Source of the DNA: Synechococcus sp. KORDI-52
GTDB taxonomy: Bacteria; Cyanobacteriota; Cyanobacteriia; PCC-6307; Cyanobiaceae
DNA length: 64,000 bases
Direction: 5' to 3'
NCBI RefSeq assembly: GCF_000737595.1
Contig: NZ_CP006271.1
Coordinates: 2,294,001 to 2,358,000 of the forward strand
A program made the position numbers and the translations under genes. Positions 2,905-41,034 of the stretch are shown here, piece by piece; the stretch's first letter is position 1; each line of letters begins with the position of its first letter. Under the pieces are notes generated by a model. The model was given only the letters and a program-made list of their open reading frames with translations, was not told where the DNA came from and ran no database searches.

Positions 2905-2960
2905 CGAATCGGCGCAAAAGCGACTGTTAAGGTTGCGCCACTCTCCAAGCCTCGCAGGCC

Positions 2961-3176
2961 ATGTCCCAGGCTGATGCCATTTCGATCGGCTCCAAGGTCC
3001 GTGTGACCCGCGTGCGTGATCGCATCCCCCAGGCGATGGTGGACCTTTTGAAGAAGGACGCCAACGGCACGGTGAAGGATTTCCGCACCGTCGACGGCAA
3101 GGGAATCGGCGTGGTTGTTGAGCTCAGCGATGGCTCCACAAGCTGGTTCTTCGAAGACGAAATCGCTGCCTCCTGA
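2961..3176 (+). CDS. petP: PetP, cytochrome b6f-associated regulatory protein (DUF2862)
   Basis: The 71-aa product has the SH3-like PetP fold signature: [16 protein letters not shown] early and [20 protein letters not shown] at the end. PetP is a small cyanobacterial and red algal subunit loosely bound to the cytoplasmic side of the cytochrome b6f complex, where it affects linear electron flow. The ATG at 2961 follows the divergent hisF start. The gene lies 11 bases before the GTG of chlG and is probably co-transcribed with it, linking photosynthetic electron transport with chlorophyll synthesis. Confidence 0.85.
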
Positions 3177-3187
3177 GGACTGTCTCC

Positions 3188-4141
3188 GTGAGCGACGCGC
3201 GTCAGCTGCTTGGGATGAAAGGTGCCTCAGGCACCACCAACACCTGGAAGTTGCGGCTGCAGTTGATGAAGCCGGTCACCTGGATCCCCTTGATCTGGGG
3301 GGTGGTCTGCGGTGCTGCGGCCAGTGGCTGTTACCAGTGGCGCCTGGACCATCTGCTCGCCGCCTTCGCCTGCATGTTGATGAGCGGCCCGTTGCTGGCG
3401 GGCTTCACCCAAACCATCAACGACTATTACGACCGCGAGATCGATGCGATTAACGAGCCCTATCGGCCAATCCCCTCAGGGGCGATCACACTGGGCCAGG
3501 TGAAGCTGCAGATCTGGGTGTTGCTGCTGGCGGGTTTGAGCGTCTCCTATGGACTGGACCGCTGGGCGGGCCACACCACCCCTGTGGTTTTTCTGCTCGC
3601 CTTGGGGGGCTCCTTTGTGAGCTACATCTACTCAGCGCCTCCACTGAAGCTCAAGCAAAACGGTTGGTTGGGCAACTATGCCCTCGGTGCCAGCTACATC
3701 GCCCTTCCCTGGTGGGCAGGTCAGGCATTGTTCGGTCACCTCACCTGGGGCACCGCGCTCCTCACCCTCGCCTACAGCCTGGCCGGACTCGGCATTGCTG
3801 TTGTCAATGACTTCAAGAGCGTTGAAGGTGATCGTGAGCTCGGGCTTCAATCCTTGCCTGTGGTCTTCGGGATCCAACGGGCCAGCTGGATCAGCGCGGG
3901 AATGATTGATGTCTTTCAGCTGGCGATGGTTGCCGTCTTGATCGGGATCGGCCAGCATTTCGCAGCGGTTCTGCTGGTTCTCTTGATCGTTCCCCAGATC
4001 ACCTTCCAGGACATCTGGTTGCTGAGAGACCCTGTGGCTTTCGACGTCAAATATCAGGCCAGCGCTCAGCCATTCCTCGTTCTTGGCATGCTGGTCACCG
4101 CCTTGGCCATTGGCCACAGCTCCCTGATTCAGGTGATGTGA
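3188..4141 (+). CDS. chlG: Chlorophyll synthase ChlG
   Basis: A 317-aa UbiA-superfamily prenyltransferase that esterifies chlorophyllide with phytyl or geranylgeranyl diphosphate in the thylakoid membrane. The first Asp-rich motif is in NDYYDREIDAINEPYRPIP near residue 85, and the second is VNDFKSVEGDRELGLQSLP near residue 210. About eight hydrophobic helices are visible. The start is a GTG at 3188 placed shortly after petP. The last codons overlap the next gene by 4 bases (GTGA), so petP, chlG and the penicillin-binding protein gene form one likely transcription unit. Confidence 0.97.
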   Translation: MSDARQLLGMKGASGTTNTWKLRLQLMKPVTWIPLIWGVVCGAAASGCYQWRLDHLLAAFACMLMSGPLLAGFTQTINDYYDREIDAINEPYRPIPSGAITLGQVKLQIWVLLLAGLSVSYGLDRWAGHTTPVVFLLALGGSFVSYIYSAPPLKLKQNGWLGNYALGASYIALPWWAGQALFGHLTWGTALLTLAYSLAGLGIAVVNDFKSVEGDRELGLQSLPVVFGIQRASWISAGMIDVFQLAMVAVLIGIGQHFAAVLLVLLIVPQITFQDIWLLRDPVAFDVKYQASAQPFLVLGMLVTALAIGHSSLIQVM

Positions 4142-6204
4142 ACCGTTCACGCGTGAGCTGGGCTCTGATCGCTGGCACGGCCGCCGCAGTGGGCGTGGGA
4201 GCAGCTCTTGGCATGCGTGCTCTCACGGAGCTGGTGGATTCCACACTGCCTGATGCACGAGGAATTGCCAGCTTCAACCGCCCTGGAACGATCACGCTGC
4301 TCTCCACCAAGGGGAAGGTGATTCAGAAGCTGGGGCCAGCGACCCGGGAGAAAGTCAAGCCCGGTGCAATGCCGCCAACGGTTGCCGAGGCCTTCATCGC
4401 TGCCGAAGATCGGCGCTTCTATCAGCACGACGGCGTGGACGGCTGGGGCATTGCCCGGGCCATCGTGACCAATGTCCGCCAGGGTGCTGTACGAGAAGGA
4501 GCCAGCACGATCACTCAGCAGCTGGCTCGAACGGTGTTCCTGAGCCAGGACCGCACCATCACACGCAAACTCAAGGAAGCGGCTCTGGCGATGAAGCTGG
4601 AACGTCAGCTGAGCAAGCAGCAGATCCTCGAGCAATACCTCAACTATGTCTACCTGGGGTCAGGGGCCTATGGCGTGGCCGATGCAGCCTGGATTTATTT
4701 CTCGAAAACCCCGGATCAGCTCACGGTTCCTGAAGCGGCGATGATTGCTGGGCTGCCTCCGGCTCCATCGATTTACTCACCCCTGGTGAACCCTGATCTG
4801 GCTCGGGAACAACGTTCGATCGTTCTCGACCGCATGGCCCAAGCGGGGTTCATCTCGGCGAGTGAGGCGGAGAGGGGCCGCAACAGTCCCCTTGGACTCA
4901 GACCTTCCACACCCAAGTATTTCAACAGTGCAGCGCCCTACTTCACCACATGGATCGCCCAGGAGCTGCCCAAGCTTCTAACGCCCGAACAACTTGAGGT
5001 CGGTGGTATCAAAATTCGCACCAGCCTGAATCTCGACTGGCAAAAAAAAGCTCAGAACGTAGTTCGAACTAATGCACCGTTCGACACCGAAGGGGCGATG
5101 GTCTCGATCGATCCCGGAAACGGACTCGTGAGGGTGATGGTTGGAGGCAAGGATTTCTCGAGAAGTCAGTTCAACCGCACCATCCTGGCGCTGCGCTCTC
5201 CGGGCTCCACCTTCAAGCTGTTTCCCTATGCCGCGGCCATTGATCGGGGCATGAAACCCGAAACAAAGGTCTTCGATGCTAAGCGGTGCTGGAAAGGTTA
5301 CTGCCCCAAAAACTTCGGTAATAAGTACTACGGGAACATCTCCCTCGCCGATGCCCTTAAAAACTCACTGAACACGGTGGCTGTTCAACTGCAAGACATT
5401 GTTGGGTTTGATGCTGTGATTGAAGTGGCCAACAACTTCAACATCGGCACTGAGCGACCTCTCGGCAAGTACTACCCGATGGCGATTGGGGCCTACGAGC
5501 AAACCATCCTCGACATGACAGCGGCCTATGCAGGCATGGCCAATCGCGGCGTGTTCTTCAAGCCGAGCCCCTTCGAAGAAATCCGTGGCCCCAACAATGA
5601 GGTGATCTGGAGTCGGCGCTTGGATGGAGACCGTGGTCGGCGGGCTGTTGATAGTGATGTTGCAGACAGCATGAACTGGATGCTGCAGCGGGTCGTCACC
5701 GGGGGCACAGGCGTCGCCGCCAGGCTGGATGATCGGCAGGTGGCCGGAAAGACCGGAACCTCAGAAAACACGCGAGATCTCTGGTTCATTGGCTCAATTC
5801 CCCAGCTCACCACTGGCGTCTGGTTTGGATACGACGACGACCGACCCACCAAAAGCAACAGCGGCGAGGCCGCGTGGGCATGGAAGCAATTCATGCTCCA
5901 GATCAAAAATGACATCCCCGTCCGTGCCTTCCCGGGCAAACCGAAGCTGAGACGAAAAATGCGTCTGGCTGTCGATCCGAAAACGATCAGCAAGCCCCCG
6001 AAGCGGAAACCAAAGCCTCAACCCAAACAGCAACCGAAGGCCATCACCGAGCCCCAAGAGACGCAACCCACTGTTGAGACGGGACTTGAAGTTGAACTGC
6101 CCACGCCGGTGGCACCTCCTCTCCGGCGCACGCCCTATCTGTGGAGAGAACGCTCGCAAGACGACAACGTTGATGCCCAAGGACGCCGCTGGACACGGGA
6201 TTGA
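4138..6204 (+). CDS. Class A penicillin-binding protein (bifunctional peptidoglycan synthase)
   Basis: The 688-aa protein has one N-terminal membrane anchor, a GT51 glycosyltransferase domain and a penicillin-binding transpeptidase domain. The GT51 domain shows EDRRFYQHDGVDGWGI with the catalytic Glu, and STITQQLAR. The transpeptidase has the acyl-enzyme Ser357 in SPGSTFK, an SLN motif, and KTGTSEN near residue 538. The final 80 or so residues are rich in Pro and Lys and look disordered. It polymerises and cross-links peptidoglycan outside the cytoplasmic membrane. The GTG start overlaps the chlG stop. It resembles PBP1A/1C-type enzymes; the exact subclass cannot be set by eye. Confidence 0.93.
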   Translation: MNRSRVSWALIAGTAAAVGVGAALGMRALTELVDSTLPDARGIASFNRPGTITLLSTKGKVIQKLGPATREKVKPGAMPPTVAEAFIAAEDRRFYQHDGVDGWGIARAIVTNVRQGAVREGASTITQQLARTVFLSQDRTITRKLKEAALAMKLERQLSKQQILEQYLNYVYLGSGAYGVADAAWIYFSKTPDQLTVPEAAMIAGLPPAPSIYSPLVNPDLAREQRSIVLDRMAQAGFISASEAERGRNSPLGLRPSTPKYFNSAAPYFTTWIAQELPKLLTPEQLEVGGIKIRTSLNLDWQKKAQNVVRTNAPFDTEGAMVSIDPGNGLVRVMVGGKDFSRSQFNRTILALRSPGSTFKLFPYAAAIDRGMKPETKVFDAKRCWKGYCPKNFGNKYYGNISLADALKNSLNTVAVQLQDIVGFDAVIEVANNFNIGTERPLGKYYPMAIGAYEQTILDMTAAYAGMANRGVFFKPSPFEEIRGPNNEVIWSRRLDGDRGRRAVDSDVADSMNWMLQRVVTGGTGVAARLDDRQVAGKTGTSENTRDLWFIGSIPQLTTGVWFGYDDDRPTKSNSGEAAWAWKQFMLQIKNDIPVRAFPGKPKLRRKMRLAVDPKTISKPPKRKPKPQPKQQPKAITEPQETQPTVETGLEVELPTPVAPPLRRTPYLWRERSQDDNVDAQGRRWTRD

Positions 6205-6213
6205 TCCAAGGTC

Positions 6214-7551
6214 CTAGCCCCTCCGAAACACAGCGGAATAGAACCCATCCCCCCCGCCGGCCTGATCGGGCCAGCGCTGGCTCTCCTCCTGCAGGTGCAG
6301 CATGGGATGACGCTTCAGCACAGATTGCACCTGGGCCTGATTTTCATCGGGATGAATGGTGCAAGTGGCGTACACCAACGATCCGGCGGGTGCCAAAAGC
6401 GGCACAAGCCCATCGAGCAGGGCTTGTTGTTGAGGCAAAAGCCCACGGATGGATTGAGGCGTCACCCGCCAACGGGCATCGGGGTGACGGGAAAGGGTTC
6501 CAAGGCCCGAGCAAGGGGCATCGATCAGAATCCGCTGGAAGGATTCACGCCATTGGGGACGCAGCTCCAACAGGTTGGCGGCATCCGCAGCAAGGGCGTT
6601 GATCGACGCAAGACCCAGCCGGGCTGCATTCGCCGCGACGCGTTTGAGCCGTCCGGGTGAACGGTCCACGGCCCAGATCTCGGCCTGATCCCCCACCAGT
6701 TCTGCCAAATGGGTGGCCTTGCCCCCCGGCGCAGCGCAGGCATCCAGGATCCGATCACCGGGCTGGGGATCGAGCAGAGGCGCAATCCACTGGGCTGAAC
6801 AATCCTGCACACACCACTGCCCCTCGGTATACCCGGGCCACTGGCGCAGATCACCGCTGTGACCCGCAATGCGCAGACCATCGGGACAACCAACAAGGGG
6901 CGAACTGCTGATGCCTGCCACGGCCAGAAGCCGTTGCACCTCCTCCCGGCTGGAGCACAACCGATTCACCCGCAAATCCAGATCAGGCACACGGTTACAG
7001 GCGCTCGCCACCGCCGCTGCCCCCTCCACCCCACGCCACTTGATCAACAACTGGGTGAACCAATCCGGCAGCGAATGGGCTTGGGCCAGCTGAGCCGCCG
7101 CATCATGCGGCAGCTGCAGGGTTTCGCCGGCCTCCCGTGCCCGCAGAGCCGCCCGCAGAACTCCATTCACCACGGGGGCCAACCGTGCCAACCCCTTGCT
7201 GGCTTTCGCCAGCTCCACTGCGGTGTTCACAGCTGCTGAATCTGGGATCCGCTCCATCAGCAGCAATTGATAGAGACCCACATGCAACAACCAGCGCAGC
7301 TTGGGCGGCTGCTTCAACGCAGGTACCCTGCCCAACCGATCCAGCCAGGCATCGAGAGTGCGCCGTTGACGGATGGCGCCATAGGCCAGCTCAGTCACCA
7401 GCCCTCGATCCGAGGGCTTGAGGTCCTGCGCCCGCAGCACCCGCTCCAGCGCCACATCGGCGTAGGCCCCAGCCGCAACCGCCTGCAACACATCCCAGGC
7501 GAGACGGCGAGGAAGCAATCCAATCGGAGCCGAACCAGACAAGTGCACCAC
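6214..7551 (-). CDS. rsmB: 16S rRNA (cytosine-967-C5)-methyltransferase RsmB (Sun family)
   Basis: The 445-aa protein has an N-terminal NusB-like RNA-binding domain (LAWDVLQAVAAGAYADVAL, ending near residue 150) and a C-terminal Rossmann methyltransferase. The SAM site is LDACAAPGGKATHLAEL near residue 270. The two catalytic cysteines lie in DAPCSGLGTLSRHPD and in YATCTIHPDENQ. It methylates cytosine 967 of 16S rRNA. It is convergent with the penicillin-binding protein gene (9-base gap) and starts with GTG 3 bases after the stop of the alkyltransferase-like gene. Confidence 0.95.
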   Translation of the reverse strand: MVHLSGSAPIGLLPRRLAWDVLQAVAAGAYADVALERVLRAQDLKPSDRGLVTELAYGAIRQRRTLDAWLDRLGRVPALKQPPKLRWLLHVGLYQLLLMERIPDSAAVNTAVELAKASKGLARLAPVVNGVLRAALRAREAGETLQLPHDAAAQLAQAHSLPDWFTQLLIKWRGVEGAAAVASACNRVPDLDLRVNRLCSSREEVQRLLAVAGISSSPLVGCPDGLRIAGHSGDLRQWPGYTEGQWCVQDCSAQWIAPLLDPQPGDRILDACAAPGGKATHLAELVGDQAEIWAVDRSPGRLKRVAANAARLGLASINALAADAANLLELRPQWRESFQRILIDAPCSGLGTLSRHPDARWRVTPQSIRGLLPQQQALLDGLVPLLAPAGSLVYATCTIHPDENQAQVQSVLKRHPMLHLQEESQRWPDQAGGGDGFYSAVFRRG

Positions 7552-7554
7552 GGA

Positions 7555-7851
7555 TCAATCTCCAGCATGGACGTCGGGGTGCCAAAGGAACTGACGCAGC
7601 GGCAAGCGTCCCTCCCCATCCACCGGAACACCCTCGGCCATCAGCAGCTCGCGCTGGATCCAGTCGCTTCCCTCACGGCTGAGGCTCATCGAAATCCGCC
7701 CCCGAGCATTCACCACGCGGTGCCAGGGAACGGTGGACGGAAGCTTGAGTCGACGCAGCGCCCAGCCCACCTGACGCGCGCAACCGAAGGCACCGATCAA
7801 CTCGGCGATCTGGCCGTAGGTGGCCAGGCGACCATGGGGGATGCGCGACAC
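7555..7851 (-). CDS. Alkyltransferase-like (Atl/YbaZ) DNA repair protein
   Basis: The product matches the DNA-binding half of O6-methylguanine methyltransferases: helix-turn-helix region GRLATYGQIAELIGAFGCAR, arginine finger region, and VPWHRVVNARGRIS. The reactive Cys of the PCHR motif is replaced by Trp (PWHR), which defines alkyltransferase-like proteins that flag O6-alkylguanine for nucleotide excision repair without dealkylating it. The first standard start in frame is the GTG at 7851. However, the expected N-terminal residues FDQRVWSEV are encoded just upstream, in frame, with ACG at 7876-7878 where an ATG would be expected, so the true start is probably non-canonical. Confidence 0.85.
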   Translation of the reverse strand: MSRIPHGRLATYGQIAELIGAFGCARQVGWALRRLKLPSTVPWHRVVNARGRISMSLSREGSDWIQRELLMAEGVPVDGEGRLPLRQFLWHPDVHAGD

Positions 7852-8017
7852 CTCGCTCCAGACACGCTGATCAAACGTGCCGCCGGAGACGTACGGTTCA
7901 ACGGAGGGATCCTTGGGCGGGATCTGGATGGCGACAGAAGCGTCAACTTCTTGATTGTCTTGCCAGGCACCAATGCATGGAGGGGCCTCACTTGTTGTTT
8001 AATCCGGTTCATGGCCC

Positions 8018-8707
8018 ATGCCCCTGCTGCCGCGACGGTTTGAGCGGCTGAAATCCGTGTTGAACCGCCGCATGTCGGATCTCACGGTGCTGCTCGAACA
8101 CGTGGAGAAGCCCCACAACCTTTCGGCCATCCTGCGCAGCTGTGATGCCGTCGGAGCGCTGGAGGCCCACGCGGTGAGTTTCGACGGGCGTCCGCGAACC
8201 TTCAACAGCACCGCCCAGGGCAGCCAGAAATGGGTGCCTCTGCACGACCATCCCGATACCGAAACGGCCATCCAATGCCTCAGAAAGAAAGGATTCCGGC
8301 TCTATGGAACCCATCTCGGCGTGGAGGCCAGGGATTACCGGGAGTACGACTTCACCGGACCAACCGCCTTCGTGCTCGGGGCGGAGAAATGGGGACTGAG
8401 CGATCAGGCCCGGGACCTGATGGATGAAGCACTGTTCATCCCCATGCGTGGCATGGTCCAATCCCTGAACGTGTCGGTCGCCACGGCGACCCTGCTGTTT
8501 GAAGCGCTGCGCCAACGCCAAGTGGCCGGTTTGGCACCAACCCAGGGAGAAGGCCTGAAGCCGGAGCAGTATCAGCAGTTGCTCTTTGAATGGTCTTACC
8601 CCGAGGTTGCTCGCTGGTGCCGGGACCAGCACAGGCCTTACCCCGGCTTGAGCGAGGAGGGAGAGCTAATGGAGGAGCTGCCGCGGAATGTGAAGCTGCG
8701 CTGCTGA
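8018..8707 (+). CDS. trmH: tRNA (guanosine-18-2'-O)-methyltransferase TrmH
   Basis: A 229-aa SpoU/SPOUT-class 2'-O-ribose methyltransferase. Motif 1 is HVEKPHNLSAILRSCDAVGA. The knot region has FVLGAEKWGLSD (motif 2) and IPMRGMVQSLNVSVATA (motif 3), which form the SAM-binding trefoil knot. The C-terminal extension of about 60 residues is typical of TrmH, which modifies G18 in the D-loop of many tRNAs. The start ATG at 8018 gives MPLLPRRFERLKSVLNRR, like other cyanobacterial copies. The upstream region is shared with the divergent alkyltransferase-like gene. Confidence 0.93.
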   Translation: MPLLPRRFERLKSVLNRRMSDLTVLLEHVEKPHNLSAILRSCDAVGALEAHAVSFDGRPRTFNSTAQGSQKWVPLHDHPDTETAIQCLRKKGFRLYGTHLGVEARDYREYDFTGPTAFVLGAEKWGLSDQARDLMDEALFIPMRGMVQSLNVSVATATLLFEALRQRQVAGLAPTQGEGLKPEQYQQLLFEWSYPEVARWCRDQHRPYPGLSEEGELMEELPRNVKLRC

Positions 8708-8770
8708 TCGGACCAAAGACTTGTATCTGCGCGAACCCTGGGCCATAAAGGAAGCAGCGGATTGTCAGCA

Positions 8771-8944
8771 ATGGACAACAAACAGCTGCACCAGTACGCG
8801 GTCACGTACCACTGCGGAAACGAGTGGGGCGAAGAAATGCTCCAGTCCGACGATCTGAGCCATGCCGTGGAAGCGGCCCACGCCATTTTCCCCAGTTCCT
8901 GCCGGATTTCGATTCGAGAGGTCAAGGCCTCAAAACAAGCCTGA
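8771..8944 (+). CDS. Small conserved cyanobacterial protein
   Basis: A 57-aa soluble protein beginning MDNKQLHQYAVTYHCGNEWG. The ATG at 8771 is preferred over the in-frame TTG at 8762. The composition is balanced, codon use matches the neighbourhood, and the gene is 63 bases downstream of trmH on the same strand. I recognise the type as a short protein common in marine picocyanobacteria, but no function is known to me. No membrane segment and no conserved metal motif is visible beyond two isolated Cys residues. Confidence 0.6.
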   Translation: MDNKQLHQYAVTYHCGNEWGEEMLQSDDLSHAVEAAHAIFPSSCRISIREVKASKQA

Positions 8945-8946
8945 GA

Positions 8947-9165
8947 TCAGCGGGGTCGCCGGGGCACGCCAGGAAGTTGAACCGCAGCGATCAAAACTGC
9001 CATCTCCAACACAAGATTGCGGCTCACCAGCACCACCACCAACACCAAGGTAGCGGCAAGGATCCGCTGGAGAAAAGCGATCACATCATCCGGGCTGTTG
9101 AAGCTCTTCGTCCAGAGCAGGACAGCCATGCCCATCAAAATCAGGCTGATCCACCAGGCCATCAC
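8947..9165 (-). CDS. Small membrane protein of unknown function
   Basis: This 72-aa product has two hydrophobic helices (WWISLILMGMAVLLW and ILAATLVLVVVLVSR) separated by a short polar loop, and a basic C-terminus ending PRRPR. It starts 16 bases after the stop of the OppC-like permease on the same strand and is probably co-transcribed. It ends 2 bases from the end of the convergent 57-aa gene. I know no function. A role as an accessory to the permease is possible but is only inferred from position. Confidence 0.5.
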   Translation of the reverse strand: MMAWWISLILMGMAVLLWTKSFNSPDDVIAFLQRILAATLVLVVVLVSRNLVLEMAVLIAAVQLPGVPRRPR

Positions 9166-9181
9166 ACCCGCGCCGATGGAG

Positions 9182-10033
9182 TCAGTCTGACGCTGGACGG
9201 GCTTCGCCGCCGCTCACCCAGGCCTCGATGCCTTCTCCAAGGAAAGACAGGCCCAGCACCAGAACAAACATCGCCAGTCCAGGGAAGAGTGCCGTCCACC
9301 ACACACCGGTGGGCACCGCAGCCAGCGCGAGATTGAGGTCTCCTCCCCATTCGGGCACGGTCTCAGGCAGACCCAGGCCAAGAAAACCCAGCCCCCCCAG
9401 CACCAGCACCGCATCGGCGGCATTGAGGGTGAGCAGCACCGGCACGGAGGTGATCACGTTGCGGAACAGGTAGCGGCGCAGGATCCAAAGGGGCCCGGCA
9501 CCGAGGCTCTGGGCGGCTTCCACGAAGAGTTCGCTCTTCACCTGGGCGGTTTGGTTGCGAACCACACGGAAATACTGCGGGACGTAAACCACACACAATG
9601 CGGCAGCGGCATTGGGGATGCCCTTGCCGAGCAGAAACGCCAACACCACTGACAGCAAAAGCACAGGCAAGGTGTAGAGCGTGTCCATCAGCAAAACCAT
9701 CAAGCGGTCGAGAGCACCGCCGAAATATCCGCTCACCATGCCCAGGGGCACTCCCACCAACAGGGCCAGACCAACCGCCAGGGCCACCACCTGAAGCGCA
9801 ACACCACTGCCGGCCATGGTGCGGACACACACATCCCGACCCAAGCGATCGGTACCGCACCAATGGGTCCAGCTGGGGGAGGAATAGATCGGGTTCTCAA
9901 GGCCAGCATTGGCGTCTGGAAGGATGCCTGCAGTCACCAACCAGGGCGTGATCAACGCCACCAGCAGATAGATCCCCACTATCACGAGCCCCCAAGAGGC
10001 CATGCGGGTGGAGAGGCTTCGGGGCATCAGCAA
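9182..10033 (-). CDS. ABC transporter permease, OppC/DppC type
   Basis: The 283-aa inner-membrane permease belongs to the peptide/nickel/opine uptake family. It has an N-terminal helix, the GTDRLGRDVCVRTM segment typical of OppC/DppC, five further helices, and an EAA-loop region (EAAQSLGAGPLWILRRYLF) that would contact the ATPase. It imports oligopeptides, nickel or a similar solute together with a B-type permease, ATPases and a binding protein. None of these partners is adjacent: upstream is a divergent sensor kinase and downstream a small membrane protein. It must therefore work with components encoded elsewhere. Substrate cannot be predicted. Confidence 0.85.
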   Translation of the reverse strand: MLMPRSLSTRMASWGLVIVGIYLLVALITPWLVTAGILPDANAGLENPIYSSPSWTHWCGTDRLGRDVCVRTMAGSGVALQVVALAVGLALLVGVPLGMVSGYFGGALDRLMVLLMDTLYTLPVLLLSVVLAFLLGKGIPNAAAALCVVYVPQYFRVVRNQTAQVKSELFVEAAQSLGAGPLWILRRYLFRNVITSVPVLLTLNAADAVLVLGGLGFLGLGLPETVPEWGGDLNLALAAVPTGVWWTALFPGLAMFVLVLGLSFLGEGIEAWVSGGEARPASD

Positions 10034-10085
10034 CGACCTCAGCGAGAGATCTGGGCATTCTCAGCCCAAGTGGTGAGAATGGAGC

Positions 10086-11483
10086 ATGGGTTCTCCTTAC
10101 CGCTGGCGACATCATTTGCTGGGCAGCCTGCAGGGGCAGCTTCAACTGGCGACCTATTTGGTGGTGTTTTTCGGCTTCACGGGAGCCTCTTCTGTGGGCC
10201 TGTATCTGGGTCAGCGCAACATGTTTGCCAATCAACGCCTATTGGCCCGGGCGAGCATCGAAGACTGTGAACACGCCATCCAAGAGCTGGCTGATGATCC
10301 TGTTGGCCTTGAGAAAGAACTCCTCTTCCACTCAGGTACGCAAACGCAGGTCTGGATTGAACAACCCGATGGCGATCTCTTTTTTTCAAAGGTTCATGGA
10401 TCAGGCCTGAAAAGTTCGATGGAACTGGCCATGGCCATGAACCCACAACGCCATGTCGGACGACAGGCCTCGATCGAAGTCAATGATGAGCTATACATCA
10501 CAGAGCTGATCAAAGAACTACCGGGCGGTTCGCGGCTCTGGATGATGATTGAAGTGGGGGACAATTTGAAAGCTCTGAGCAATTACTTAGCACTGATGAT
10601 TCTCATCTGGGGGGGTTGCCTGTCCTTGACGTTGCTGACTGTCAGCTGGGTGGTGCGAAGACTTGTTCACTCCCTCGATCAACTGAACCTTGCAACAGCA
10701 CAACTCACTGCTGACAACCTCTCAAACACAACGCTGCCAGTGGACCCTGCCCCCACGGAAGTTGGTGAACTGAGAGACAACTTCAATGCACTGCTGGAGC
10801 GCTTGGCTCAATCCTGGAGCCAACAAAAACAATTCGTCAGCGCCGTAAGCCATGAATTACGAACCCCGCTCACAATCGTGCAAGGCTACCTACAACGAAC
10901 AATTAAACGCAGCAAAAATCTGACTGCAGATGAAATCAAAGGTTTACAGACGGCCAGCGATGAAACCATCCGGATGAGACACATTCTTGACGATCTGTTG
11001 GATCTTTCCAGAAGTGATTCAGGGAAACTCTCCATTGAAAACGAGCAGGTCTGCCTGGTGGAGAAGCTTGAGCAAGTGGAATCACTTGCACGCAACACCA
11101 TTCCCCGCACATTTCAGCTGGAGCTCCCTCACAACAAAGAACTGATCGCGCAAGCCGACCCGGAGAGGCTTCAACAGGTGCTGCTCGACCTCATCGAGAA
11201 TGCTCATAAGTACTCACCGGAAGACAGACCGATCAAGTTGGTGCTGCGGGAGGACGCTGAAGGGCCAGCCATCGATGTCATTGATCAAGGCATCGGAATT
11301 CCTGCCGAGGAACTCGAACTGGTGTTTCAACGCTTCCAACGCGCGAGCAATGCCCCCCACAAAACAGGAACAGGACTCGGACTGTCTCTGGTTCGGGTGT
11401 TTGTGGAGGGAATGGGCGGCACAATTGAAGTCAAGAGCTGCCTCGGAGTAGGCAGTTGCTTCACGGTGCATCTGAACCCATGA
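10086..11483 (+). CDS. Membrane sensor histidine kinase
   Basis: The 465-aa protein has a transmembrane helix near residues 20-40, a periplasmic sensor region of about 130 residues, a second helix near 165-190, a HAMP linker, a HisKA dimerisation domain with H-box SAVSHELRTPLTIVQGYL (His256), and an HATPase domain with N-box LIENAHKYSP, DQGIGIP and GTGLGLSLV. All catalytic motifs are intact. Its stop overlaps the start of the next small membrane protein (ATGA). No response regulator is directly linked; the nearest is at 13786, beyond the broken pilin operon. The signal is unknown. Confidence 0.92.
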   Translation: MGSPYRWRHHLLGSLQGQLQLATYLVVFFGFTGASSVGLYLGQRNMFANQRLLARASIEDCEHAIQELADDPVGLEKELLFHSGTQTQVWIEQPDGDLFFSKVHGSGLKSSMELAMAMNPQRHVGRQASIEVNDELYITELIKELPGGSRLWMMIEVGDNLKALSNYLALMILIWGGCLSLTLLTVSWVVRRLVHSLDQLNLATAQLTADNLSNTTLPVDPAPTEVGELRDNFNALLERLAQSWSQQKQFVSAVSHELRTPLTIVQGYLQRTIKRSKNLTADEIKGLQTASDETIRMRHILDDLLDLSRSDSGKLSIENEQVCLVEKLEQVESLARNTIPRTFQLELPHNKELIAQADPERLQQVLLDLIENAHKYSPEDRPIKLVLREDAEGPAIDVIDQGIGIPAEELELVFQRFQRASNAPHKTGTGLGLSLVRVFVEGMGGTIEVKSCLGVGSCFTVHLNP

Positions 11484-11824
11484 TTACGTTTCTGGTGTTT
11501 TGCTCACTGTTGATCCCAGTGAACCTATGGGCGGCCATCACGCCCCACATGCACAGTGATCTTTCGATGCGGATCTTGCATGGCCTGTGCACCCTTGTCT
11601 TGATCCCCTTGCTGTGGACGCTGTGGGATCAAAGGAGATGGCTGAAACCTGTTCCCTCACTGATGCTGGCCCTCTTTGCGGTGGTGATGGTTGTGGTGAA
11701 CAGCTGGATCACGGCCATGGGCATGGGTGTGGAATTTGGTTGGCTCGATCATCTTTTTCTGGCCCTTTCAGAAATCGCTCTCGCTGTTTTCTTTCTGACA
11801 GCTCCGCAGGAGACAACCGCTTAA
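11480..11824 (+). CDS. Small multi-helix membrane protein, unknown function
   Basis: The ATG at 11480 overlaps the kinase TGA by 4 bases, so translation is probably coupled. The 114-aa product has about four hydrophobic stretches: MITFLVFCSLLIPVNLWAA, ILHGLCTLVLIPLLWTLW, LMLALFAVVMVVVNSWI and LFLALSEIALAVFFLTA. No family is recognised. Coupling to the kinase suggests it belongs with that sensor, perhaps as an accessory membrane partner, but this is inference. It ends 8 bases from the end of the convergent broken pilin operon. Confidence 0.6.
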   Translation: MITFLVFCSLLIPVNLWAAITPHMHSDLSMRILHGLCTLVLIPLLWTLWDQRRWLKPVPSLMLALFAVVMVVVNSWITAMGMGVEFGWLDHLFLALSEIALAVFFLTAPQETTA

Positions 11825-37014: not shown

Positions 37015-37290
37015 TCAGAGGGCCGTGGACAGACAGCGTTGCAACCAATTCAACAGTCCCTCACCCGTGAGCCGCGGCGAAACGCGGGGCAGCTCAGAAC
37101 CATCGAGCGCGAGCACAGGCACCTCGAGGTCGTAGCGCGCCTTAAGCCCCTGGGGGATGCCGGTCGCATCGATATCAATCACCTTCAGCTTGATCGAGAG
37201 CCGGGCGAGATCGATAGCCCGCAAGCGGGATTCCATGCCCTCACAGAGGCAGCAGCCGGTGCGGCTGTACAGGGTGAGCTCCTTCATCAA
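37015..37290 (-). CDS. Glutaredoxin-like protein (thioredoxin fold, DUF836 type)
   Basis: The 91-aa protein starts [20 protein letters not shown], with a CxxC-type redox site (CCLC) after the first strand. [20 protein letters not shown] and the cis-Pro in VPVLALDG follow, as in small glutaredoxin/thioredoxin-like proteins. The substrate is unknown. Its ATG overlaps the stop of yidD by 4 bases, so the two are co-transcribed. A glutathione-binding glutaredoxin is less likely because the second motif (TVP) is replaced by EVPVL. Confidence 0.8.
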
Positions 37291-37541
37291 TCGGGCACCG
37301 GATCACAGCCGCAGGGGGTGAAGGGATGGCAGCGCAGCAGCCGCTTCATGGTGAGCCAGCCCCCCTTCCAAGGACCATGCTTCTCAATGGCCTCCAGGCC
37401 ATAGGCACTGCAGGTGGGAGTGAAGCGGCAGCGGGGCCCGATCATCGGGGAGATGAACCGCCGGTAAAAGCCGATCAGGGCGAGAAGCAGCGATTCAACA
37501 GTCTGCGAAACCAGAAGTCCTATCGCAGCCATGCTGGTCAA
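37287..37541 (-). CDS. yidD: Membrane protein insertion efficiency factor YidD
   Basis: The 84-aa protein has the full YidD signature: [40 protein letters not shown] and [17 protein letters not shown], with the conserved Cys residues. YidD assists the YidC insertase in placing proteins in the membrane and lies on its cytoplasmic face via an amphipathic N-terminus. It is normally next to rnpA/yidC, which are not here. It is divergent from the ion channel gene with only 26 bases between the two start codons. Confidence 0.96.
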
Positions 37542-37567: not shown

Positions 37568-38746
37568 GTGACATCGCGGAACGCCATTTTGGCTCGGAAA
37601 CGTTGCATTCGGCTCCTGCTCGTTCTCCTGTCGATCGGGGTCGCCGTATGGCTCAATCTGCCCCTGGCTCAAGCCAATGAACGGCTGCCAGGCCAGGCCA
37701 ACCGCATTGGCGACTTATGGAAGCTCAACGCAGCACGCCATCCATGCGCCACTGCGGAAACCCTTCCCGCCAATGCTTACATCCCGCCGCAACAGAGGGA
37801 GGCGCCGACGCCAATCCCGGTAGGAATCAGTATTCACATCAATGAGATTCCTGAAATTTCAGACACCTACAATCGATTTCAGCTGGATGGATTGCTCACC
37901 TCGACGTGGTGCGACAGCCGATCCATCAGCGATATCCCGGTGGGCGAGGACGCACTGGTGTTGTTCAACAACGCCGCCGAAGATTGGTTGAGCGAACATT
38001 GGTCCCCCCAACTTGAGTTCACCAACCGAGTGAGCGAAGCTTTTTATCAGACACAGACAATCACCATAAGAAAGAATGGGTCCATTGAGCGAATGACACG
38101 CTTTGAAGAACAACTTGGATCCGAGTTCAAACTTGAGAAGTTCCCCTTCGACCAACAATTACTTAGAATATATGTTCAATCATTCACCTGGGACCAAAGC
38201 GTCGTTCGACTCGTGAATCTTGGAGACGTCGTGAGCCTGAGCCGAAATTCAAGGCTCCCTGAGTGGGAAATCAAAAATCTTCGATACGTCATACGAAATC
38301 ACGACGACCCTGAGAAAGGCAGCAAGGAATACTCAAGGCTATCCTCAAACATCACAATCAAACGACGCTCGGGATACTACATCTACAAAATCTTTATGCC
38401 ATTGGGCATCCTCACATTCACGAGCATCTTTTTCCTGGCGATACCAATCAACGCCTTCGCAGACAGAATGGCGTTCATATCCGGGCTTTTGTTCACAACC
38501 CTGGCTTATCAGATCATCATCGCAAGCGCTGTCCCCAGAGTTCCATACCTCACCCTTGGCGACACTTACACAATTTTCCTGTTCACATTCATGATCGCCG
38601 AGGTTTTTATCGCCTATCACATCTCACAAAATTTACAAAAGCAAGGCAACGAAGGCGTTCCGACCATCGAAAGAGCGATGGAAATTTTTCTACCGCTGAT
38701 CTTCATCTTATTTCAGACCCTGTTCATCTGGCTTGCAATCAACTGA
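37568..38746 (+). CDS. Pentameric ligand-gated ion channel homologue (GLIC/ELIC type)
   Basis: The 392-aa protein has a signal peptide (LLLVLLSIGVAVWLNLPLAQA) and an extracellular beta-sandwich to about residue 265. The prokaryotic Cys-loop equivalent has the conserved FPFDQQLLRIYVQSF (F192 to D195), and a strand reads LPEWEIKNLRYVI. Four helices follow: M1 about 270-292, M2 about 296-318 (FADRMAFISGLLFTTLAYQI), M3 about 325-350 and M4 about 369-391. This is the Cys-loop receptor fold known in bacteria from Gloeobacter GLIC. It would form a five-subunit ion channel, probably in the cytoplasmic membrane. Ligand and ion selectivity are not predictable. GTG start. Confidence 0.9.
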   Translation: MTSRNAILARKRCIRLLLVLLSIGVAVWLNLPLAQANERLPGQANRIGDLWKLNAARHPCATAETLPANAYIPPQQREAPTPIPVGISIHINEIPEISDTYNRFQLDGLLTSTWCDSRSISDIPVGEDALVLFNNAAEDWLSEHWSPQLEFTNRVSEAFYQTQTITIRKNGSIERMTRFEEQLGSEFKLEKFPFDQQLLRIYVQSFTWDQSVVRLVNLGDVVSLSRNSRLPEWEIKNLRYVIRNHDDPEKGSKEYSRLSSNITIKRRSGYYIYKIFMPLGILTFTSIFFLAIPINAFADRMAFISGLLFTTLAYQIIIASAVPRVPYLTLGDTYTIFLFTFMIAEVFIAYHISQNLQKQGNEGVPTIERAMEIFLPLIFILFQTLFIWLAIN

Positions 38747-38786
38747 CTGGAACATGAATCAAATCCCTGCGAAATACCACCAAGAA

Positions 38787-39647
38787 CTAATGGCGCAAAT
38801 CCTTGAAACGCCGCGCCAACAAACCAAATTCATCGGGACGCTTCTCGAGATTCTCATCCTCATAGCCTTTATCAACGGACTGTAAAAGCTTGAACAACGG
38901 TCTAAAAACCACGCTGGAAAAAATACGATTCACAGCCAGAACCACTGCCGCCGAGAGGCCTCCAACCGCTGCAACCAAAAGCAGCGCAAACCGGCCAGGA
39001 GCGGGGAGACCAGCATCTTCAGGCAAAGTGACAATCTGAGCGCCAACCACATCGCCCACCTGCCAACCAAAACCGCCAGTTTCTCCATAGACCCGGATCT
39101 GGCTGCGCGGAGCACGGTCGGGAGTGGAGTGGCAGGTAAGACAACTCTCCTTGGTCAAGCGAATCGGTTTCGCAACGAAATACTGGTGATGATCACTCTT
39201 GGAGTCCAAAGAACCACTTAATTCTTTGAGGGACGGATTGGCCATGAAACGACGAATCAACTGAGCCTCCTGTTCATCCGCCAAATCAGCGGGGCTTGTG
39301 GGGTTCAGAGAGGCCTCGCGGTATTGAAAATCCTCGTAAGCATGATTAAGCCTCAAATATTCAAAAACTTTCGTCGCTGAGTAGCTTGGTACTGCTGATG
39401 GCAGGAACGCCTCATCCGAGACTGCATTAATCGGGGCGATGATCGGATTGATCTTGCGTGACGTGTACTCGCGTACAGACAGCATTACGTCCATGAATTG
39501 GATGGCTTGCGACCTGACGTATTGACGGGCGACGACTGAATAGCCTGAGAGCACCAAAATCACGGCCAAGATCAACGCAACGAGCTGGACGCCGACAAAC
39601 CGCAAGAGAAAGTCTGTCGCGACGGATCGGGCGGGCGAGCTGGCCAA
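38787..39647 (-). CDS. DUF3365 (Tll0287-like) haem c-binding sensor protein
   Basis: The 286-aa protein has an N-terminal anchor helix (LVALILAVILVLSGYSVVA) and a periplasmic PAS-like domain of about 150 residues with a c-type haem site CxxCH (ESCLTCHSTPDRAP). A second helix (FALLLVAAVGGLSAAVVLAV) and a HAMP-like segment ending LARRFKDLRH follow. In longer relatives this module is followed by kinase, phosphatase or cyclase domains; here the protein stops after HAMP, so it is either a stand-alone redox or gas sensor or a truncated receptor. It is convergent with the ion channel gene, 40 bases apart. Confidence 0.82.
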   Translation of the reverse strand: MASSPARSVATDFLLRFVGVQLVALILAVILVLSGYSVVARQYVRSQAIQFMDVMLSVREYTSRKINPIIAPINAVSDEAFLPSAVPSYSATKVFEYLRLNHAYEDFQYREASLNPTSPADLADEQEAQLIRRFMANPSLKELSGSLDSKSDHHQYFVAKPIRLTKESCLTCHSTPDRAPRSQIRVYGETGGFGWQVGDVVGAQIVTLPEDAGLPAPGRFALLLVAAVGGLSAAVVLAVNRIFSSVVFRPLFKLLQSVDKGYEDENLEKRPDEFGLLARRFKDLRH

Positions 39648-39743: not shown

Positions 39744-40352
39744 ATGTCCCGTTACCGCGGCCCTCGCCTGAGGATCACGCGGCGCTTGGGAGACCTCCCC
39801 GGTCTCACCCGGAAGGCCGCCAAACGGTCCTATCCCCCCGGTCAGCACGGCCAAGCCCGTCGCAAGCGCTCTGAATACGCGATCCGTCTCGAAGAGAAGC
39901 AGAAGCTTCGCTTCAACTACGGCGTTTCCGAGCGTCAGCTCGTGCGCTACGTGAAGAAAGCGCGCGCCCAGGAAGGTTCCACCGGAACCAACCTGCTCAA
40001 GCTGCTCGAGAACCGTCTCGACAATGTGTGTTTCCGCCTCGGCTTCGGACCCACCGTGCCCGGCGCCCGTCAGCTGGTGAACCACGGTCACGTCACCGTG
40101 AACGGTCGTGTCACCGACATCGCTAGCTACCAGTGCAAGCCTGGCGACGTCATCGCCATCCGCGAGCGCAAGTGCAGCAAGAAGCTGGCTGAAGCCAACC
40201 TCGAGTTCCCCGGTCTGGCCAACGTGCCGACCCACCTCGAGCTGGACAAGTCCAAGCTGAGCGCCAAGGTCACCGGCCGCTGCGAACGCGAGTGGGTTGC
40301 CCTGGAAATCAACGAACTGCTGGTGGTGGAGTACTACTCCAGAAAGGTCTGA
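39744..40352 (+). CDS. rpsD: 30S ribosomal protein S4
   Basis: The 202-aa protein starts [20 protein letters not shown] and has the Lys/Arg-rich [20 protein letters not shown] region. The S4 RNA-binding domain follows at about residues 90-155 ([34 protein letters not shown]). S4 is a primary 16S rRNA binder that nucleates assembly of the small subunit. It stands apart from the main ribosomal operon, as in other cyanobacteria, and ends at a strong terminator. Divergent from the haem sensor gene with a 96-base gap. Confidence 0.98.
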
Positions 40353-40383
40353 TCCCGATCCGCAGCTCACAAACCCACAATGC

Positions 40384-40415
40384 GCAACCCTGGGTCCAGG
40401 GTTGCGTTTTTTTTT
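40384..40415 (+). terminator. Rho-independent terminator of rpsD
   Basis: GCAACCCTG pairs with CAGGGTTGC around a GGTC centre (40384-40405), followed by nine T residues at 40407-40415. This is a textbook intrinsic terminator 31 bases after the rpsD stop. Its T-run merges with the first possible start (TTG) of the next gene. Confidence 0.93.
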
Positions 40416-41034
40416 GGCTGATCCCCAGGCACTGCAGGCGCTCACCCGCCACGACTGGCTCGGACTGATCCACCCCGTGCTGATGATCCTGTTCGTCTAC
40501 CCGGTGGTGGGCGCCACGATCCGCCTGGGAATCCTGGCGCGGGAAAAGCGATTGGAGATCAACCCGATCGCCGATACCGTGCCGGTGGAGCACGCGCAGC
40601 ATGGAGCCTGGGTGACGGCCGGAGTGCTGCTGGCGGTGCTGATCAGCCTCAGCCACAGCCTCTGGAGCGTCCATCCCCTGAGTCTGCTGCTCAGCGGAAG
40701 CGCCGTGCTGTTCAGCTTTGGACGCCTGCTCACCAGCCGGATGGTCTGGCGACGCCTGCTCTGGGCTGTCGCCAGTGCGAGCGGCCTGCTTCTGCTTGGC
40801 CTGCAGCCCGCTGTGGAGCGGTTCAGCGATGTTCCGTGGAACCCCCTGTTCTGGCAGTCCCATTTCTGGATGGGCCTGTTGCTCACCTCCCTGTTGCTGA
40901 GCTCCACAGCGCTGCAGCCCATGATTGGTCATTCCCTGAGGGCACGACGCCTTCACATCAGCAGCAATCTGCTGGTGGCCTTGCTGCTGGCCATGCAGGC
41001 GATTTCTGGAACAAGAAATCTGCTGCTGAATTAA
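40414..41034 (+). CDS. DUF4079 membrane protein, paralogue of the gene at 31763
   Basis: The product is about 206 aa from the TTG at 40414, the first start after the rpsD terminator. The ATG at 40483 is an alternative. The DUF4079 signatures are [40 protein letters not shown] and [20 protein letters not shown], followed by [11 protein letters not shown], closely matching the other copy in the window. About six helices and conserved His residues at the membrane border are seen. Function unknown. Because the terminator's T-run is immediately upstream, it needs its own promoter within or before that hairpin, or relies on read-through. It overlaps the convergent maf gene by 4 bases. Confidence 0.8.

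Follow-up and report, generated by a model that had tools for sequence, protein, structure and literature searches.

Two prokaryotic pentameric ligand-gated ion channels (pLGICs), ELIC from Erwinia/Dickeya and the proton-gated GLIC from Gloeobacter, are standard models of nerve receptors, and the native role of bacterial pLGICs is, to our knowledge, largely unknown. A pLGIC in Synechococcus has been in print since 2004: the entry 'Syn, Synechococcus sp.' stands in an alignment figure legend in the accessible part of Tasneem et al. 2004/5 (PMC549065), and Jaiteh et al. 2016 (PMC4795631), in the available sections, treat a sequence from Synechococcus. The association of pLGICs with Cache sensors is likewise known; the cases in the same part of Tasneem et al. 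are fusions (MCP-N + Cache) or a predicted Rhodopseudomonas operon in which a pLGIC accompanies a stand-alone Cache protein. The PF11845 domain (sCache_heme; DUF3365/Tll0287) is a heme-c Cache according to the accessible text of PMC12889525, which takes stand-alone heme-Cache proteins as redox proteins, describes such behavior with Cys/His ligation for the P. putida protein, and reports tight NO binding for a TM-TM-HAMP heme-Cache protein of P. azotoformans. No paper linking a pLGIC with a heme-Cache protein was found in the open-access literature, and as far as that search shows, the pairing described here is new.

We analyzed a window of 64,000 nucleotides from Synechococcus sp. KORDI-52 (contig NZ_CP006271.1, positions 2,294,001 to 2,358,000). 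A pLGIC gene and a convergent heme-Cache gene occupy a variable site between yidD and a gene that we take, from its sequence, to be rpsD. Positions in the window are as follows.

37287-37541, minus strand: yidD, left flank of the variable site (PF01809, 1.3e-31)
37568-38746, plus strand: pLGIC gene (PF02931 above cut-off, ELIC and GLIC by phmmer, predicted fold)
37589-37675, plus strand: putative signal peptide to residue 36, ending LAQA (sequence and hydropathy 11-36; inferred cleavage site)
37676-37807, plus strand: N-terminal extension ahead of the ligand-binding domain, carrying Cys60 (ELIC alignment, fold match)
37910-37912, plus strand: Cys115 in a WCDxR motif (invariant in 8/8 clade members)
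38141-38155, plus strand: Pro-loop FPFDQ, residues 192-196, the cysteine-free β6-β7 'Cys-loop' equivalent (sequence)
38300-38323, plus strand: loop C, short and acidic, H-D-D-P-x-x-G (alignment columns)
38369-38440, plus strand: predicted helix M1 with the Pro278 kink (model; P278 invariant in alignment A1)
38456-38533, plus strand: pre-M2 and M2 (ELIC alignment, prime numbering from PDB titles, alignment columns, translation)
38555-38644, plus strand: predicted helix M3 (model)
38657-38740, plus strand: predicted helix M4 (model)
38747-38786: convergent intergenic gap, 40 bp between both stop codons (ORF coordinates)
38787-39647, minus strand: partner of 286 residues, TM, heme-c Cache (sCache_heme, PF11845), TM and HAMP-like stub (PF11845)
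39129-39143, minus strand: CLTCH heme-c attachment motif (sequence)
39744-40352, plus strand: rpsD, right flank of the variable site (92-99% identical in other genomes)

The listed TTG start of a DUF4079 membrane protein frame (40297-41034, plus strand) overlaps the 3' end of rpsD, and its true start probably lies downstream.

The channel frame (37568-38746, plus strand) runs for 392 codons without interruption. The four closest homologues have their start codons at the position of TTG 37589, which is therefore probably the true start in place of GTG 37568 and yields a product of 385 amino acids. The protein matches PF02931 (Neur_chan_LBD) at 1.4e-14 (54.5 bits, cut-off 26), and phmmer matches it to ELIC constructs in the PDB at 2.8e-25 and to GLIC at ∼2e-20; a clade-profile search finds ELIC at 2.9e-37. 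Against the NCBIfam ligand-gated ion channel subfamily NF033918 it scores 105.4 bits, far under the 500-bit cut-off. The phmmer alignments cover query residues 80-382 (ELIC) and 74-389 (GLIC), which answers the concern of an earlier note on this DNA that M1-M4 and the loop positions might fail to align with these channels. F192, P193, D195, W233, R266, P278 and P323 are invariant in 8/8 clade members, and all seven superfamily-wide positions given in Table 1 of the available part of PMC4795631 are present ([F/Y]PxD, β9 Trp, pre-M1 Arg, M1 Pro and M2-M3 Pro).

An AlphaFold2 single-chain model built from 27 sequences has a pLDDT of 87.1 and a pTM of 0.78; 8 close sequences gave a pLDDT of 49. 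Membrane helices are predicted at residues 268-291, 297-321, 330-359 and 364-391, and hydropathy also gives four. With Foldseek the model matches the honeybee GABA-A receptor RDL at 1.7e-27 and ELIC at 5.1e-26, so that ELIC chains nearly equal animal receptors in E-value. VIA-align superimposes it on 7pbz_A, of the animal GABA-A/glycine receptor group, with Z 29.0 (r.m.s.d. is 1.7 Å over 311 residues), and the best 50 rows (Z 28.0-29.0) are all animal receptors and tied. A likeness to animal GABA-A and glycine receptors thus lies in the predicted fold and in a WxP before strand 4; the channel's WxDxR presumably matches the animal receptor motif as well. The WxP is part of the hWxP motif that the available part of Tasneem et al. 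(PMC549065) gives for eukaryote-like forms. In contrast to the animal receptors, with which it shares 17-23% identity, the channel lacks both the Cys-loop cysteines and the long M3-M4 loop.

Profile matches, the ELIC and GLIC alignments, the residues of Jaiteh Table 1, the predicted fold and hydropathy thus agree with the earlier assignment to the pLGICs, and its claim of a full receptor layout also holds, with signal peptide, FPFDQ at residues 192-196 and four C-terminal membrane helices all present. We regard it as virtually certain that 37568-38746 encodes a complete Pro-loop pLGIC. We found a single pLGIC copy in the genome.

A hydrophobic stretch (residues 11-36) ends in AQA and is followed by an extension that comprises residues 37-80 by the ELIC alignment (44 residues) or 37-63 by the fold match (27 residues), the VIA-align match beginning at model residue 28, which is residue 64. 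The model places a helix at residues 50-57 and has a block pLDDT of ∼91 from residue 57 onward. DeCLIC, in the part of its description available, is another pLGIC whose ligand domain is preceded by an added part; the window channel differs in having only ∼27-44 extra residues with one conserved Cys and no separate globular domain. That residue, Cys60 (codon 37745-37747), is kept in 7/7 clade members reaching that far, and together with Cys115 it makes up the full set of cysteines in the mature channel; one relative from genus g45 has an additional Cys in M4. We propose that Cys60 and Cys115 may form a disulfide. Cysteines are absent around the β6-β7 loop, neither C60 nor C115 lying near it, and F192, P193, F194 and D195 of the Pro-loop are invariant in A1. 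In loop C, D246, P248 and G251 are invariant in the same alignment, and positions 245 (His or Tyr) and 247 (Asp or Glu) vary.

Prime numbering of M2 follows the ELIC alignment, fixed by the PDB titles L238C (7′) and F247S (16′). The channel has Asp at -1′, Arg at 0′, Ala at 2′, Gly at 6′, Phe at 9′, Ala at 13′, and Ile at 16′ and 17′. D299-R300 (-1′/0′) is found in 8/8 clade members, and M2 7′-15′ is invariant in 8/8, the pore being conserved more strictly than the ligand domain. The accessible part of Tasneem et al. (PMC549065) assigns Glu-[Arg/Lys] to cation channels and Ala-[Arg/Lys] to anion channels. The channel carries the acidic -1′ residue of cation-selective pLGICs as Asp, where the animal motif has Glu, and since its D-R ahead of M2 resembles the cation motif, it is probably cation-permeable. 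Phe at 9′ is a minority form, found in 13% in the available part of PMC4795631.

ELIC is the best sequence match in the PDB (∼22% identical) and shares with the channel the acidic -1′ residue, Arg 0′, the FPFD loop and the contact residue F133, which corresponds to F206 in 8/8 clade members. ELIC F188, whose aromatic ring we take to have a role in the ligand site, corresponds to Y/F255. The channel differs from ELIC in Phe for Leu at 9′, in Gln, Ala or Ser for E131 across its clade, in a shorter acidic loop C, in the extra N-terminal segment and in the conserved Cys pair. GLIC, also a cyanobacterial pLGIC and aligned over its full length, scores lower than ELIC, and we assume that its pre-M2 and pore residues differ from those of the channel. 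With E131 replaced and loop C short and acidic, the channel probably has other ligands than ELIC, and Ca2+ or some cationic small molecule would suit the acids. That some periplasmic small molecule gates the channel appears likely.

The partner matches PF11845 at 1.5e-38 (132.9 bits, cut-off 24.1) and has the CXXCH of sCache_heme proteins. Hydropathy gives membrane stretches at residues 8-44 and 217-248; HAMP is weak in Pfam (0.12), and a HAMP-like C terminus is seen by alignment. The protein ends after this HAMP-like part and carries no output domain. In the partners of KORDI-52 and of the genomes G251 and G183, CxxCH holds the only cysteines; those of G106 and G131 each carry a third one within the C-terminal HAMP part. 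The 11 heme-Cache paralogues compared show just two cysteines in the aligned stretches. Axial heme ligation of the Tll0287 type, by Cys and His, thus looks excluded. The partner differs from the sCache_heme cases in the accessible text of PMC12889525 in this lack of an extra Cys and in being paired with an ion channel. Its TM-Cache-TM-HAMP layout, with the weak HAMP match noted above, is the same as that of the NO-binding P. azotoformans protein described there. Given coupling to the channel, the chances that the heme input would be NO rather than redox potential look evenly balanced.

As HAMP domains normally relay signals inward and the partner retains TM2 and HAMP-like residues, the coupling could run in reverse: the ligand domain of the pLGIC would serve as co-receptor for the heme-Cache protein, whose signal would pass via HAMP to an unlinked kinase or cyclase, and ion flux would be incidental. 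We consider this very improbable; variation is lower in the pore than in the ligand domain (M2 7′-15′, above), which argues that conduction is selected.

The two genes come and go together. The pair lies between yidD and rpsD in 5/5 genomes whose channel has 68% identity or more, namely KORDI-52 (G000), G251, G183, G106 and G131. Neither gene is present at this site in 18/18 other genomes of the same genus that are at least 95% complete, nor in 20/20 other genomes of a second genus that are at least 90% complete; at all 38 empty sites the matches to yidD and rpsD are separated by 89-166 bp. Channel and partner are thus never separated among 43 sites examined. In a 400-genome family sample, the heme-Cache subclade at 63% identity or above, or 65% or above in one of the searches, is found in the same five genomes only. 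Paralogues 41-46% identical are found elsewhere in the absence of this channel. Such a second heme-Cache gene, 42% identical and at another place, is present in two of the five pair genomes (G251:C2:1982895-1983728 and G183:C11:3357-4178); the other three do not have one, and the partner is the sole PF11845 gene found in G000, G106 and G131. The co-occurrence of the pair in every close relative examined suggests that channel and sensor work together.

The same data can be read differently. All five pairs occupy one site and are therefore not five independent events, and the genes are convergent, so they do not form one operon of the type given by Tasneem et al. in the part available (PMC549065). 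Compared with those cases, the window has a heme-c Cache partner with TM2 and a HAMP-like end, in convergent orientation and at an on/off site. A single-site history makes the linkage count uninformative, and the channel may be a stand-alone ELIC/GLIC-like receptor that responds to amines, protons or a Ca2+ change in the periplasm, with the heme-Cache gene a passenger on a small yidD-rpsD island. ELIC being its nearest relative in sequence, with F133 and F188 matched and E131 changed, also fits this reading; that the genes have diverged together and were never found apart, and that the partner by itself lacks an output domain, does not. We give it a little less than an even chance.

Both genes are under purifying selection, with dN/dS between G106 and G131 of 0.08 for the channel and 0.14 for the partner; between KORDI-52 and G251 the channel value is 0.05 with saturated dS. 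In both genes, only the G106/G131 comparison escapes saturation or near-saturation at synonymous sites, so the divergence of both is old. KORDI-52 and G251 group together in the trees of channels (82/99, later 95/98) and partners (83/97). A recent transfer between the genera is unsupported, as a single clade of the second genus is not rejected by the AU test (p 0.31 and 0.22) and the KORDI-52/G251 synonymous sites are as saturated as those of murE; the higher identity of the channel (81%, murE 67%) is by itself no evidence of transfer. Either an old transfer or an old presence followed by repeated losses may lie behind this pattern. We rejected phage or plasmid cargo, since there is no match in viral contigs, in phages or, by DNA, in plasmids; the lone plasmid protein hit is a Legionella adelaidensis hypothetical protein, 24.6% identical.

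Patchy presence of this kind might signal a decaying or non-functional acquired gene, and a relative 44% identical to the channel, in the 82%-complete draft G271 (C28; loci L007/L033), contains one in-frame TAA, which may be decay or a sequencing error. The channel itself is intact in 5/5 close genomes, retains all key residues and has the low dN/dS values given above, and decay is hardly credible for it.

Relatives are sporadic, as the earlier note had stated for bacteria: the channel occurs in 1/34 genomes of its own genus and 4/31 of the second. At E ≤1e-3 the family sample yields 25/400 genomes: 9 with members of the clade, 15 with distant sequences (∼21-27% identical), and G104, a spurious case consisting of an N-terminal stretch that the clade profile does not recover and that was left out. 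In a phylum sample, 20/386 genomes are found by the clade profile and 15/386 by PF02931. The next relatives, 37-46% identical, come from genera g45 and g9 (4 genomes, of which one has a completeness of at least 90%). A PF11845 gene is found in 0/4 of these genomes, no heme-Cache profile match occurs in the three neighborhoods fetched (L031-L033), and the neighbors are ordinary in both loci scanned. In general, therefore, the channel can do without the heme protein, a further point for the stand-alone reading.

Our inspection of distant pLGICs covered 17 places in 15 genomes of cyanobacteria. At three of them (G692, G434 and G431) the same-strand neighbor encodes a TM-dCache_3-TM protein of 380-434 residues that ends in a HAMP-like part and lacks an output domain, and the two genes overlap by a few bases or lie ∼22 bp apart (first-start ORF calls). 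Of these genomes, G692 consists of one contig, and the drafts G434 and G431 have contamination of 9 and 7%. In 13/17 places no Cache gene is among the immediate neighbors (ORFs of at least 90 residues), which, like the convergent orientation and the confinement to one site, counts against coupling. The four channels beside dCache_3 or a Cache remnant form one clade (100/100), distinct from that of the window (100/100), and a sister relation of the two has an AU p of 0.435. One dCache_3 partner has no BLASTP similarity to the window's partner, their profile match lying mainly in the TM2-HAMP part, so the two belong to different Cache families. A second pLGIC clade with a Cache partner of its own speaks against a passenger role for the heme-Cache gene.

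Several of these loci have further features. The remnant, in L154 (G692:C1:433000-448000, 6638-7556), is what is left of a Cache-HAMP gene, still bearing HAMP; it adjoins a DDE_3 transposase and lies upstream of a second-copy pLGIC. The same locus encodes (2935-5274) a 780-residue protein with a periplasmic-binding-protein domain (PF13458, 3.7e-35) and a weak pLGIC profile match (1e-5), and the genome has several other pLGIC genes. In L169 (G574:C57:102000-117000, 5367-7537 and 7544-11668), two tandem weak pLGIC genes lie directly beside CheB with a receiver, a CheA-like kinase and CheW, possibly a chemosensory cluster with channels as receptors. L167 (G522:C92:1000-16000, 6512-8594 and 8779-9240) has two tandem overlapping pLGIC-like genes followed by CheW; the pLGIC-like genes have profile matches only and no Pfam match, and their tandem arrangement suggests a heteromeric channel.

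For the window we slightly favor a functional coupling of the channel to the heme-Cache protein. The channel would be a homopentameric, Pro-loop ligand-gated channel in the plasma membrane with its ligand-binding domain facing the periplasm, where a small molecule bound at subunit interfaces would open the pore. The heme-Cache protein, in physical or functional contact with the channel and with NO or redox as heme signal, would set or modulate the response, and ion flux (Na+ or Ca2+, inward in seawater) would be the output signal. That the two act as one sensory unit with this output is, in our estimate, an even call. A chemotaxis role for prokaryotic pLGICs is proposed in the accessible part of Tasneem et al. 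(PMC549065). CheW is found in 0/5 pair genomes and is present in the control Synechococcus elongatus; a classical chemotaxis receptor was therefore rejected, this output being unlikely in the pair strains. Going further, a gas- or redox-tuned pentameric channel might be the effector of a covalent-heme Cache-HAMP protein that lacks a kinase or cyclase, and would turn periplasmic NO or redox state into ion flux in a planktonic phototroph with no chemotaxis coupling proteins; more generally, output-less Cache-HAMP proteins might be auxiliary subunits of bacterial pLGICs. We offer this extension as speculative and rather unlikely.

The earlier note considered the channel gene by itself; more can be learned from its pairing with the heme-Cache gene and from the on/off locus. 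A two-gene unit at such a site, with clean genomes 'with' and 'without' it, makes the native role of a bacterial pLGIC testable. Should the heme-Cache protein prove to regulate the channel, a bacterial receptor channel would have an auxiliary subunit, and ion flux would be linked to a heme signal. This would, if true, give a use to Cache-HAMP proteins that seemingly have no output.
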